64,000 nucleotides of DNA, from NCBI GenBank assembly GCA_024919195.1, contig CP103436.1, positions 744,001 through 808,000 on the forward strand, written 5' to 3'. The translations under genes and the position numbers were made by a program. The notes under the pieces are model-generated. The model made no database searches. It was not told the origin of the DNA and saw nothing but the letters and a program-made list of their open reading frames with translations. Every line of letters begins with the position of its first letter. Position 1 is the first letter of the stretch. Source of the DNA: Methylophilaceae bacterium LSUCC0717. GTDB lineage: Bacteria > Pseudomonadota > Gammaproteobacteria > Burkholderiales > Methylophilaceae. Positions 8,352-11,175 of this stretch are shown piece by piece.

Positions 8352-9515
8352 TTAGATGTTTAAATCAGCAATAATGTCATCAATGTGTTCTAGTCCAACA
8401 GCAATACGAACTAAACCATCATCTATCCCGGCATCATCTCTTTGTTCTTGAGTTAAGCGAGAATGAGTCGTTGTTGCTGGATGAGTAATGGTCGTTTTTG
8501 TATCACCTAAATTAGCTGTGATGGACATTAACTTTGTTTTATTGATGATTTGCCATGCAGCCTTTTGTCCACCTTTTACAACAAAAGATAAAACAGCGCC
8601 ACCGGTGGATTGTTGTGCTAAGGCAATGTTATATTGTGGATGACTTTTTAGACCAGGATAATAAACTTTTGAAATGTTTTTATTTTTTTCAAGATAAGTT
8701 GCTAGCTTGATTGCATTATCAGATTGTTGGTCCATTCTAATTTTTAATGTTTCTAAGCCTTTTAAAAATACCCATGCATTAAAAGGGCTGAGAGTAACTC
8801 CTGAATTTCTTAAAAAAGTATAAATCTCATTCATTAGTCTTTTTTTACCAAGAACAGCACCGCCCAAACATCTTCCCTGACCATCTAAATACTTTGTTGC
8901 TGAATGAATAATAATGTCTGCGCCGTGATCAATCGGTTTTTGTAAGGCTGGGGTACAAAAACAATTATCAACAATTAATTTAACTTTTTTTGATTTAGCG
9001 AATTGAGATAACTTTTTTAAGTCTACAATTTCTGTTAATGGGTTTGACGGGGTTTCTAAAAAATAAAATTTAGTATTTTTAGTAGTTGCTGCTTCCCAAG
9101 CATTTAAATCAGGTAGATCAACAAAGCTAATACTTAGTCCCCACTTAGCTAAAAAATTGTTGAACAATTGAACAGAAGTACCAAAAATACTTTTGGACAC
9201 AACCACATGATCTCCAGGTTTACAAAGAGCCATAAATGTTGCCAGAATTGCAGACATTCCAGAGGACGTTGCAATACATTGTTCCGCCCCTTCAAGTGCA
9301 GCTAGCCTATCTTCAAAAGCTTTTACTGTTGGATTGGTAAATCGACTGTAGACATTTCCTGGCTGCTCGCCAGAAAAACGTTTTGCTGCCTCTTGAGCAT
9401 TCTTGAAAATAAAACTTGATGTAAGAAATAGTCCTTCAGAATGTTCTCCAAACTGAGATCGTTCAATTCCTGCTCGTACCGCATCAGTTTCAAAATTTTT
9501 ATTTTTATTTTTCAT
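8352..9515 (-). CDS. metZ: O-succinylhomoserine sulfhydrylase
   Basis: PLP-dependent Cys/Met-metabolism enzyme; forms homocysteine directly from O-succinylhomoserine and sulfide, bypassing cystathionine. 387 residues with YSRFTNPT (56-63), SSGMSAI, DNCFCTPALQKP and the PLP lysine K208 in HSATKYLDGQGRCLGG. MetB and MetY are related alternatives, but the purF-metZ neighbourhood and the sequence pattern are those of MetZ. It is separated from purF by 106 nt containing a strong promoter and a SAM-II-like aptamer, so expression probably falls when S-adenosylmethionine is plentiful. Confidence 0.92.
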   Translation of the reverse strand: MKNKNKNFETDAVRAGIERSQFGEHSEGLFLTSSFIFKNAQEAAKRFSGEQPGNVYSRFTNPTVKAFEDRLAALEGAEQCIATSSGMSAILATFMALCKPGDHVVVSKSIFGTSVQLFNNFLAKWGLSISFVDLPDLNAWEAATTKNTKFYFLETPSNPLTEIVDLKKLSQFAKSKKVKLIVDNCFCTPALQKPIDHGADIIIHSATKYLDGQGRCLGGAVLGKKRLMNEIYTFLRNSGVTLSPFNAWVFLKGLETLKIRMDQQSDNAIKLATYLEKNKNISKVYYPGLKSHPQYNIALAQQSTGGAVLSFVVKGGQKAAWQIINKTKLMSITANLGDTKTTITHPATTTHSRLTQEQRDDAGIDDGLVRIAVGLEHIDDIIADLNI

Positions 9516-9518
9516 AAC

Positions 9519-9531
9519 TCTGTTTAACAGA
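9519..9531 (-). repeat. 13-nt dyad just before the metZ start
   Basis: TCTGTT and AACAGA arms around one central base, lying between the riboswitch GAGG and the metZ ATG. It could fold as a small hairpin shortening the 19-nt distance from GAGG to the ATG, or be a protein site. Function unknown. Confidence 0.5.
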
Positions 9532-9534
9532 ATT

Positions 9535-9588
9535 CCTCAGTTTAGCTAAATTATGTTTGCGCTAGCAAGCTGGTGCAAATCGACGCGA
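9535..9588 (-). promoter_or_regulatory. SAM-II (SAM-alpha) riboswitch upstream of metZ
   Basis: Read 5' to 3' on the minus strand, the element shows the conserved SAM-II blocks in order: CGCG, GATTT, a 10-nt loop, GCTAGCGC, 11 nt containing ATAAT, AGCTAAA, then CT and GAGG. Compared from memory with the crystallised marine metagenome metX aptamer, the motifs agree, the GCGC-to-AGCTAAA spacing is the same (11 nt) and the loop is 1 nt longer. The P1 helix is weaker, three GC pairs plus a GU. In this class SAM binding stabilises an H-type pseudoknot that hides the ribosome binding site. The gene controlled, metZ, is a typical target. Confidence 0.8.
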
Positions 9589-9592
9589 TGTC

Positions 9593-9621
9593 ATTATCTA
9601 AAAAAAAATTGAGTCGGTCAA
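9593..9621 (-). promoter_or_regulatory. sigma70-type promoter of metZ
   Basis: Minus strand TTGACC, exactly 17 nt, then GATAAT. The start point expected ~7 nt downstream falls at the first CGCG of the aptamer, so the transcript would begin with the riboswitch. The -35 begins right after the purF stop. The spacer's T9 run preceded by TTGA-CCGAC-TCAA could also act as a weak purF terminator. Confidence 0.75.
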
Positions 9622-11175
9622 CTAAAGCTCAAGAACCTCGTCAACGTCATCGCTATCTTGATTGGTGATTAAATTTAAATCAAGTTGGGTAATTGAGTTT
9701 TTTGGTTTAAAACTGGCTGATGAATCTGCTCTTACTGACTCAATCAAATTAAGATAATTTTCATCAATGTCATCCGTGACGTAACGACCATCAAAACAAG
9801 ATGCATCAAACTCAGTTAATTGTTTATTTTCTTTGGTTACGTTCTTTTTTAGAGCATCTAACTCTTGATATATCACACCATCAGCACCAATTTCCTCACA
9901 GATCTCAGCCTCTGATTTATCGAAAGCAATTAGTTCATTTCGAGATGGCATGTCAATCCCATACACATTTGGAAATTTTACAGGTGGTGCAGCCGAGGCC
10001 AGAAAAACTTTCTTTGCACCGGCATCGCGAGCCATTTCAACAATTTCTTTTGATGTGGTTCCTCTGACGATTGAATCATCGATCAGCAGCACACTTTTTC
10101 CTTTGAATTCGATTGCAATTGGATTCAATTTTTGTCTGACTGATTTTTTTCTTGTCGCCTGACCAGGCATGATAAATGTTCGACCTATGTATCTATTCTT
10201 AACAAACCCTTCTTTAAAATCTGTTTTTAACTTTTGCGCAACTTGCAAAGCTGTAGGTCTACTGGTGTCAGGAATTGGGATCACCACATCAATCTTTTCG
10301 TCTTTTAGTACAGATTTAATTTTTTCTGCTAATGTTTCCCCCATATTTAGACGAGTTTGGTAAACAGAAACCCCATCGATTACCGAATCAGGTCTTGCCA
10401 GGTATACATACTCAAATATGCAAGGGCTAACTTTATTATCACTCACACATTTTTTTGAATAAAAGTTTCCATTTAGATCAATAAATATTGCCTCTCCCGG
10501 TTCTACGTCTCTCAATAACTCAAAACCTAATACATCTAAAGCCACACTCTCTGAAGCAACAATGTATTCTGGACCATCGCCCATTTCTCTTTTACCGATA
10601 ACCAAAGGTCTAATTCCATGGGGATCTCTAAAAGCAAGTAAGCCAAAATTAGCAATCATAGATACCACTGCAAAAGCGCCACTACATCTGCTATAAAGAG
10701 AGCTTACAGCATCAAATATCATATCCGTTGTTAGTACACTTTTTTTAGATGAATCAACAAGCTCATGAGCCAATACGTTTATGAGAACCTCAGAGTCAGA
10801 GTTGGTATTGATATGTCTTAAATCTTGTTTAAACATATCTTGTTTTAGCTTGCTAGAGTTAGTTAAATTACCATTATGACCAAGAACAATGCCATAGGGT
10901 GAGTTTACATAGAATGGTTGAGCTTCAGCTGCGGAAGAAGATCCAGCCGTCGGATACCTAACATGAGCTATTCCTGCATTTCCAATCAAATTTCTCATAT
11001 GTCGGGTTTGAAATACGTCTTTTACAAGACCATTATTTTTATGCATGTAAAATCTATTGCCGTCTGTGGTAACAATTCCAGCGGCATCTTGACCTCTATG
11101 CTGCAATACTAAAAGTCCATCATATAGCATCTGATTGACAGGGTTATTAGAAACAATTCCAATGACTCCACACAT
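9622..11175 (-). CDS. purF: amidophosphoribosyltransferase
   Basis: First committed step of purine synthesis: glutamine amide nitrogen is transferred to PRPP. The N-terminal nucleophile hydrolase domain begins MCGVIGIV, so Cys2 becomes the catalytic N-terminus without a propeptide. RGQDAAGI and the GNLTN glutamine-site motif follow; the C-terminal phosphoribosyltransferase domain has the PRPP loop VLLIDDSIVRGTTS near residue 365. 517 residues, normal length. It ends the 19-gene run; its ATG shares one base with the cvpA stop (TAATG), and cvpA-purF is a classical pair. Confidence 0.97.
   Translation of the reverse strand: MCGVIGIVSNNPVNQMLYDGLLVLQHRGQDAAGIVTTDGNRFYMHKNNGLVKDVFQTRHMRNLIGNAGIAHVRYPTAGSSSAAEAQPFYVNSPYGIVLGHNGNLTNSSKLKQDMFKQDLRHINTNSDSEVLINVLAHELVDSSKKSVLTTDMIFDAVSSLYSRCSGAFAVVSMIANFGLLAFRDPHGIRPLVIGKREMGDGPEYIVASESVALDVLGFELLRDVEPGEAIFIDLNGNFYSKKCVSDNKVSPCIFEYVYLARPDSVIDGVSVYQTRLNMGETLAEKIKSVLKDEKIDVVIPIPDTSRPTALQVAQKLKTDFKEGFVKNRYIGRTFIMPGQATRKKSVRQKLNPIAIEFKGKSVLLIDDSIVRGTTSKEIVEMARDAGAKKVFLASAAPPVKFPNVYGIDMPSRNELIAFDKSEAEICEEIGADGVIYQELDALKKNVTKENKQLTEFDASCFDGRYVTDDIDENYLNLIESVRADSSASFKPKNSITQLDLNLITNQDSDDVDEVLEL

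Follow-up and report, generated by a model that had tools for sequence, protein, structure and literature searches.

SAM-II riboswitches are already known from betaproteobacteria. A figure legend in Corbino 2005 (PMC1273637) lists Bordetella bronchiseptica for SAM-II, Barrick and Breaker 2007 (PMC2258182) place the class in alpha- and beta-proteobacteria, and PMC2704228 gives its range as 'Alpha-, Beta- and Gammaproteobacteria'. Most members act on transcription and a minority on translation, including the crystallised metX riboswitch (PMC6061858), and 44 tandem SAM-II, some with mixed platforms, are reported in PMC9481103. The metXZ RNA element of Leyn et al. 2014 (PMC4239095), found before metZ in three Methylophilales, is treated there as a new element. 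That study reports SAM_alpha from no orders but Rhizobiales and Rhodobacterales, and the two mentions of SAM-II found in its text belong to the introduction. Its genes and its description, together with betaproteobacterial leaders that score as SAM-II, suggest that the published metXZ is SAM-II. For OM43 strain H5P1, a single cobalamin riboswitch is the only one reported in the cited part of PMC9004378, and among titles and abstract openings, with subscription journals mostly outside the search, we found no literature on a SAM riboswitch of OM43.

Here we analyse a metZ leader within a 64 kb stretch of DNA (the window). An earlier note had recognised a SAM-II riboswitch in it and expected the find to widen the range of the class or to indicate transfer. 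The publications above had already covered that range, and the MetZ tree described below fits vertical descent; what is new is a variant without a terminator. We consider it likely that a SAM-II-type riboswitch, inherited within the Methylophilaceae, was remodelled in a marine genus: once a switch acting through a transcription terminator, it would now turn translation OFF.

Results

The metZ locus belongs to a complete genome of 1.27 Mb, and the element lies at 9586–9535 on the minus strand of the window. On this strand the gene order is purF, a 106-nt leader, metZ and gyrA. The purF-metZ context described in the earlier note was confirmed, as both PurF upstream (9622–11175, minus strand; TIGR01134, 527.3 bits, cut-off 350) and MetZ downstream (O-succinylhomoserine sulfhydrylase, 8352–9515, minus strand; NCBIfam NF006003, 656.6 bits, cut-off 522), the product of the putatively controlled gene, score above their cut-offs. 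The proposed betaproteobacterial host was borne out as well: MetZ is 96% identical to that of 'beta proteobacterium KB13' and 93% identical to that of Methylophilaceae bacterium LSUCC0665. We call the host genus OM43-like, on the basis of KB13 standing among the OM43 strains in PMC9004378. The leader begins at the purF stop codon, which abuts a sigma-70-like promoter predicted by sequence inspection (9593–9621, minus strand), with a -35 box TTGACC at 9621–9616, a 17-nt spacer and a -10 box GATAAT at 9598–9593. P1 starts six bases past GATAAT, and TTGACC and TATAAT-like boxes are visible in relatives with the same leader type (type A, see below), too. Judged by these motifs, metZ would have its own promoter, and its expected transcription start would fall at about the first P1 base.

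All conserved SAM-II blocks claimed earlier were found in order before metZ on the minus strand: GCGTC (9586–9582), GATTT (9581–9577), CACCAGC (9575–9569), TTGC (9568–9565), AGCGC (9563–9559), GCTAAA (9546–9541), CTGAGG (9540–9535) and the ATG of metZ (9515). The RNA thus reads GCGUC GAUUU GCACCAGC UUGC U AGCGC, a 12-nt linker, GCUAAA CUGAGG, a possible hairpin of 19 nt and AUG. The P1 hairpin (9559–9586, minus strand) pairs GCGU 9586–9583 with GCGC 9562–9559 and includes one U.G pair; C9582 and A9563 do not make a standard pair. GAUUU (9577–9581, minus strand), the putative third strand of the SAM pocket, contains three U that are invariant in 27/27 rows and corresponds, in our mapping, to G8 and U10–U12 as numbered in the SAM-II crystal. 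The 5′ strand of the pseudoknot (9563–9573, minus strand) comprises CCAG 9573–9570 (P2a) and UUGC-U-A 9568–9563 (P2), and its 3′ strand (9535–9548, minus strand) comprises U9548, A9547, GCUAAA 9546–9541 and CUGAGG 9540–9535. UUGC and GCUAAA are likewise invariant in 27/27 rows, and the pairs U9564-A9547 and A9563-U9548 are possible in 5/5 distinct type-A rows. By its sequence, GAGG (9535–9538, minus strand) is Shine-Dalgarno-like, and it adjoins P2a or lies inside it.

Between GAGG and AUG, RNAfold predicts a possible 8-bp hairpin, AAUUCUGU-UAA-ACAGAGUU (9516–9534, minus strand), which fills the whole gap up to the metZ start codon. Folded alone, the spacer reaches -6.0 kcal/mol in the window, -6.5 in L014 and L015 (one common sequence) and -2.8 in L013; the hairpin at -6.0 or -6.5 occurs in two different sequences and 3/4 distinct type-A spacers, the fourth giving the -2.8 kcal/mol. 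In whole-leader folds it is kept in the window, L011 and L015 and absent from L013 and L014. The distance from GAGG to AUG is 19–26 nt in type A, which appears long for a Shine-Dalgarno sequence unless the spacer hairpin folds. In the unliganded RNAfold structure of the whole leader, part of GAGG is bound by UUUAG and AUG stays open, which leaves the ON/OFF logic uncertain. The same leader fold, searched for a P3, contained no hairpin between 9558 and 9549. We rejected the spacer hairpin as an intrinsic terminator because it has no U tract; the terminator test was negative.

At gathering cut-offs, Rfam gave no match in the 64 kb window and 0 matches at 20 relatives' loci. RF00521 scored 12.0 bits (E 1.8; cut-off 36) on the 181 nt around the element; over the whole genome, the element was absent among the 14 matches listed, and seven other places scored at least 12.0 bits (best 15.5), which is chance level. 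Neither RF01726 nor, at E<=10, SAM_V (RF01826) was among the Rfam matches of the window. A scan of 299 genomes of the phylum with RF01826 gave no match in any genome, and no positive among them, and is uninformative. We then used R1, a covariance model of 28 sequences, none from the window's genus and ten of them the best RF00521 loci of Burkholderiales. In the 1.27 Mb genome R1 gave 14 matches at E<=10, of which the window element was the best (9533–9590, 29.2 bits, E 6.6e-5, where E-values of such short-calibrated models may be off about fivefold) and the next scored 18.6 bits. The covariance-model check suggested in the earlier note therefore came out negative for RF00521 and positive for the hold-out model R1, and the two scores agree with its guess of a divergent variant. 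With RF00521 below its cut-off, we file the element as a divergent beta SAM-II and not under the curated family.

Among five weak places inspected in the genome (ranks two to four of R1 plus two from RF00521), three coincide with ORFs of at least 100 codons, on the same or the opposite strand. The remaining two share sequence in a region that lacks an ORF of this length, and no methionine gene was recognised behind any of the five. Because the window element is the best R1 match in its genome and such an element precedes metZ in 26/26 genus genomes with a metZ match (31 genomes searched), we regard it as more than a chance hit. Across the order, R1 matched 109/150 genomes at E<=0.001 (12/28 training sequences come from genomes of this sample), and RF00521 exceeded its cut-off in 26/150 Burkholderiales genomes. 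The ten best of these loci re-scanned at 41.7–52.5 bits; their next genes, assigned by eye, were four MetZ-like, three MetX-like, one MetK-like and two not assigned. Among Methylophilaceae metZ leaders, 9/14 matched RF00521 at E<=1 and 1/14 was above the cut-off, the non-genus leader L072 scoring 36.9 bits against 36. Such intermediates, L072 and the Burkholderiales loci, appear to link the window element to Rfam's SAM-II family. As a separate observation, RF02424 (Bp2_287, 'Burkholderia sRNA') matches the antisense of the beta SAM-II element at 9/15 loci at E<=1 (L044, L049, L051, L052, L054, L065, L067, L072 and L075), none above the RF02424 cut-off; L051 has one extra weak match on the other strand. 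A figure legend in PMC3521395 shows this sRNA among purF, metZ and metX genes, and RF02424 appears to be antisense to the riboswitch.

Of the 144 Methylophilaceae genomes in which MetZ was matched, we read the metZ leader in 70 (22 genus, 48 non-genus), delimiting the elements of L015 and L038 by hand-written patterns. In 46/48 non-genus leaders there is an element resembling UGCGC[CU]GAUUUGA...CUCAGCUUGCGGGCGC...AAAUACNGCUAAAGCGAG, and none was found in L057 and L061. L1 measures 5 to 41 nt in these relatives and is short in the window. In L048, the metZ leader of G007, an otherwise canonical element has GCAAAA in place of GCUAAA, which alters a base expected to contact the SAM adenine. Within the genus, type T (8 genomes) has a terminator and type A, the window's (8 genomes), has none. 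Type B (6 genomes) has a P1 of GGGUG/CACCC, no terminator and AAGGA shortly 5′ of AUG; judged by sequence, UCC of its pseudoknot can pair directly with GGA of the Shine-Dalgarno. Type C (4 genomes) has two tandem aptamers, C1 with a terminator and then C2 with a P1 of AGGU/ACCU and a ribosome-binding site. These tandem leaders (L025, L031, L032 and L038; 4/26 genus genomes) carry SAM-II plus terminator and then, at the ribosome-binding site, a second, SAM-V-like aptamer. R1 match pairs on one strand, 73–109 nt apart, at G180:C39, G224:C7 and G266:C15 may be further tandem SAM-II in other Burkholderiales. The R1 scores by type were 21.5–34.0 bits for the other seven type-A genomes, 45.5–71.0 for all eight terminator-type genomes and 32.9–40.7 for the first element of 4/4 tandem genomes; the six type-B leaders gave no match at E<=1, one of them reaching 9.0 bits (E 2.8).

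The terminator test was positive for 50/56 non-genus elements (45/46 Methylophilaceae, 5/10 other Burkholderiales). Within the genus, where some rows are repeat copies of a locus from the same genome, it was positive in 8/9 rows of T and 4/4 of C1, and in 0/10 rows of A (8 genomes), 0/8 of B and 0/4 of C2. In type A, GAGG can be covered by CAG/CUG and a C-G pair. A translational OFF switch is favoured because these pairs and a hairpin between GAGG and AUG are possible; with no terminator and a Shine-Dalgarno at the pseudoknot, the window's type is probably such a switch. That the type-A element instead acts by transcription, whether Rho-dependent or through an atypical hairpin, seems unlikely to us, even though its nearest relatives are terminator switches and a hairpin can follow the aptamer. 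The hairpin at hand, however, stops at the start codon without any U tract, none of the type-A rows has a terminator, and GAGG adjoins the pseudoknot.

Pairing was assessed in a MAFFT alignment of 27 distinct rows (A3), with a P1 of 4 bp, P2 and an outer pair 29-50 as its structure. In 96.3% of cells the partners pair, compared to 22.9–45.6% with partners slid by 1–3 columns; the 96.3% is somewhat favoured, since this structure was chosen after a first count (95.3%), pair 18-61, which failed in 11/27 rows with all type A among them, being dropped and 5-29 replaced by 29-50. P1 (columns 1-4/30-33) is paired in 100% of cells and covaries, three of its four pairs (1, 2 and 4) being altered on both sides across the 27 sequences. 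The earlier proposal to look before metZ in related genomes for the same element with compensatory P1 changes was thus answered in the affirmative. In shuffles that kept relatedness, 'pairs changed' and 'further types' were not above chance (reached by 111 and 500 of 500) because whole types change together. The P2 pairing UUGC/GCUAA is possible in 27/27 rows; its inner pairs never vary, so core P2 is silent on covariation, and P2a (CAG/CUG) has no covariation of its own because it is invariant within type A.

The earlier note had called P1 weak for a GU pair and a mismatch. The U.G pair is there, but the supposed mismatch C9582.A9563 can be read differently, as A9563 faces U9548 in P2. Read as a P1 pair, column 29 (A9563) fails in 2/5 distinct type-A rows (C.A, G.A); read as a P2 pair, it holds in 5/5 A, 8/8 T and 4/4 C1 and fails in the ten rows of B and C2. 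The outer pair 29-50 is G-C in 12 rows, A-U in 5 and unpaired in 10 (types B and C2); the terminator types have the G-C form, the window's type the A-U form. C9582.A9563 is accordingly better read as no P1 pair, and A9563 may pair into P2. A decaying, functionless SAM-II relic in a streamlined genus would suit the low RF00521 score, the missing terminator and the U.G and C.A in P1. We think it improbable, however: 8/8 type-A genomes keep GAUUUGCACCAGCUUGCUAGCGC and GCUAAACUGAGGA intact, with a variable linker in between and MetZ identity as low as 78%, and the P1 changes are compensated between types.

A model built from type B (R2) gave no match in the window genome at E<=0.1. In other genus genomes it finds further elements that resemble C2 and lie just 5′ of small ORFs without assignment. 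These SAM-V-like elements have P1, a 7-bp P2 with rich covariation, often P3, an AGGAG-like site and a start codon; they precede non-methionine genes and lie in L105 (289–348 and 556–615), L107 (1390–1441, minus strand), L108 (247–306 and 473–531) and L109 (290–349), with further loci in L110, L111, L121, L122, L123–L128 and L139–L145. The R2 matches L119 and L120, which face a long ORF, and L112, which falls within an ORF, were put down to chance and are left out of alignment A6, as are L110 (nearly identical to L111) and four C2 elements. In 22 side elements, 98.1% of the P2 cells are paired and a single column shows up to five pair types; the paired share is 83.7% for P1 and 73.3% for P3, compared to 29–54% overall for slid partners. 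RF01826 scored 23.9–32.6 bits at five of these places (E 0.04–2.8; cut-off 41) and 15.9 bits (E 4) on the C2 element of L038; because these scores are below the cut-off, Rfam does not establish SAM-V membership. The first element of L038 scored 24.0 bits with RF01726 (cut-off 44).

Model R3, built from ten side elements and four C2 with P1 and P3, not P2, in its structure, matched 21/187 family genomes and 10/250 order genomes at E<=0.001. It also matches the six type-B metZ leaders, which are outside R3 (E 6e-10 to 1e-8), a result not fully independent because other R3 members were found with the type-B model. A start codon lies 1–4 nt past the R3 end in 12/13 further places (11 of the 13 order places and two family places; outside this check are G623 and G256 of the order and the weak or second family places G301:C1, G074:C1:1008325, G007, G057 and G080). 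Pfam scans of eight proteins behind R3 places gave a match for four (DUF3293, SNF2-related, histone deacetylase, TY-Chap/YbjN-like) and nothing for the other four. The L107 element stands beside a tRNA and a weak integrase match (below the Pfam cut-off), the L108 element near a SinI endonuclease and the L121 element near GmrSD_N. L105 contains a short tmRNA-like piece (1614–1694; RF00023, 57.4 bits, middle missing) about 1 kb from its two SAM-V-like elements, perhaps an attachment-site remnant. Viral contigs searched by pattern and by one protein, and phages searched by one protein, gave no relative of the side elements or their genes. Given the integrase match, tRNA, tmRNA-like piece and restriction genes beside some elements, mobile elements possibly sense SAM.

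The MetZ tree comprises 37/38 rows (L026 missing; midpoint root, for drawing only). Types A (100/100), B (100/100) and C (99/97) each form a clade, B and C are sisters (100/99), and T is held together weakly as one group (61/74). All genus rows form a single clade (100/99) that adjoins eight of the nine other family rows; the ninth, L033, groups with the four rows from other families. This fits vertical inheritance of metZ, in a tree of the gene and not of the leader, and by parsimony terminator control would be ancestral and lost in A and in B. Transfer of the window element is not favoured because the gene tree fits vertical descent.

We give little credence to the view that the element is SAM-V rather than SAM-II, or came from marine alphaproteobacteria. 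It resembles SAM-V in its 4-bp P1, in a P2 that can be extended by U9564-A9547 and A9563-U9548 and in the Shine-Dalgarno at its 3′ end, and the type-A leader of G114 is a weak R3 match (27.8 bits, E 7.9e-4). Against this, SAM_V is missing from the window's Rfam matches, the leader fold has no P3, R3 has no match in the window genome at E<=0.001 while the beta SAM-II model does match, and the tree of the gene speaks against transfer. The base triples of the SAM-II pocket, G8-C23-G42, U11-U21-A45 and U12-U20-A46 (PMC3764141), are all possible in the window, and U44, assigned by analogy with U47 of SAM-V, is present. The same fold with another ligand, such as SAH, is very improbable: sequence cannot reveal a ligand and type-A junction bases depart from the family norm, but the positions that contact SAM in SAM-II and SAM-V crystals are kept and a methionine gene lies downstream.

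Discussion

For the translational OFF switch that we prefer, with SAM as its presumed ligand, the following course can be proposed. When SAM is plentiful, the leader would fold as an H-type pseudoknot (P1 9586–9583/9562–9559, P2 9568–9563/9548–9542), with UUU of GAUUU as a third strand around SAM. The pseudoknot would hold CUGAGG in P2a and cover GAGG, so that less metZ is translated; at low SAM, P2a would open and ribosomes would start.

More tentatively, and with somewhat less than even confidence, we suggest that a native SAM-II terminator switch became translational twice within this one streamlined marine genus. Type A would have lost the terminator and lengthened P2, ending up midway between SAM-II and SAM-V. 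The B and C lineage would have acquired a second aptamer, of SAM-V-like form; its probable source would be mobile elements in which aptamers of this sort precede non-methionine genes of the elements' own, and type B would later have lost the first aptamer. If true, SAM-II and SAM-V would be the ends of one continuum observable in evolution, and SAM sensing would be a trait of betaproteobacterial mobile elements. The SAM-V-like elements, some of which lie on apparent mobile DNA, raise the question of why they would read host SAM. As for the window, annotation that relies on thresholds overlooks the metZ switch of its genome, and the 26 genomes of one genus offer a closely sampled case of a riboswitch output that would have changed from transcription to translation.

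Among the known systems, SAM-II with long loops (RF01726, PMC2864571) is, like the window element, a SAM-II variant; the window element differs in its short L1. The SAM-II/SAM-V tandem (PMC6061858, PMC9481103) places a terminator before a ribosome site, an order that matches type C of the sister lineage and is absent from the window. SAM-V (RF01826; PMC6061858, PMC9481103) shares the longer P2 and the translational OFF logic inferred for the window, but the window lacks P3 and a SAM_V score. The translational metX SAM-II (crystal, PMC6061858) has an H-type pseudoknot, a short P2a and translational control, as the window appears to have; it differs in lineage and gene, and the window may have a hairpin between GAGG and AUG. 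With SAM-II/SAM_alpha (RF00521; PMC1273637, PMC2258182) the window shares P1 and pseudoknot, GAUUU, CUUGC, GCUAAA, a methionine gene and a promoter just 5′ of P1, but it scores far below the cut-off, its P2a and junction are rewired and its terminator is absent. The metXZ element (PMC4239095) is a leader of metX or metZ in betaproteobacteria, before metZ in Methylophilales as in the window, and is described with six conserved regions, a pseudoknot of regions 1-4 and 2-6 and a terminator; the window's type, in contrast, stands before metZ without one.
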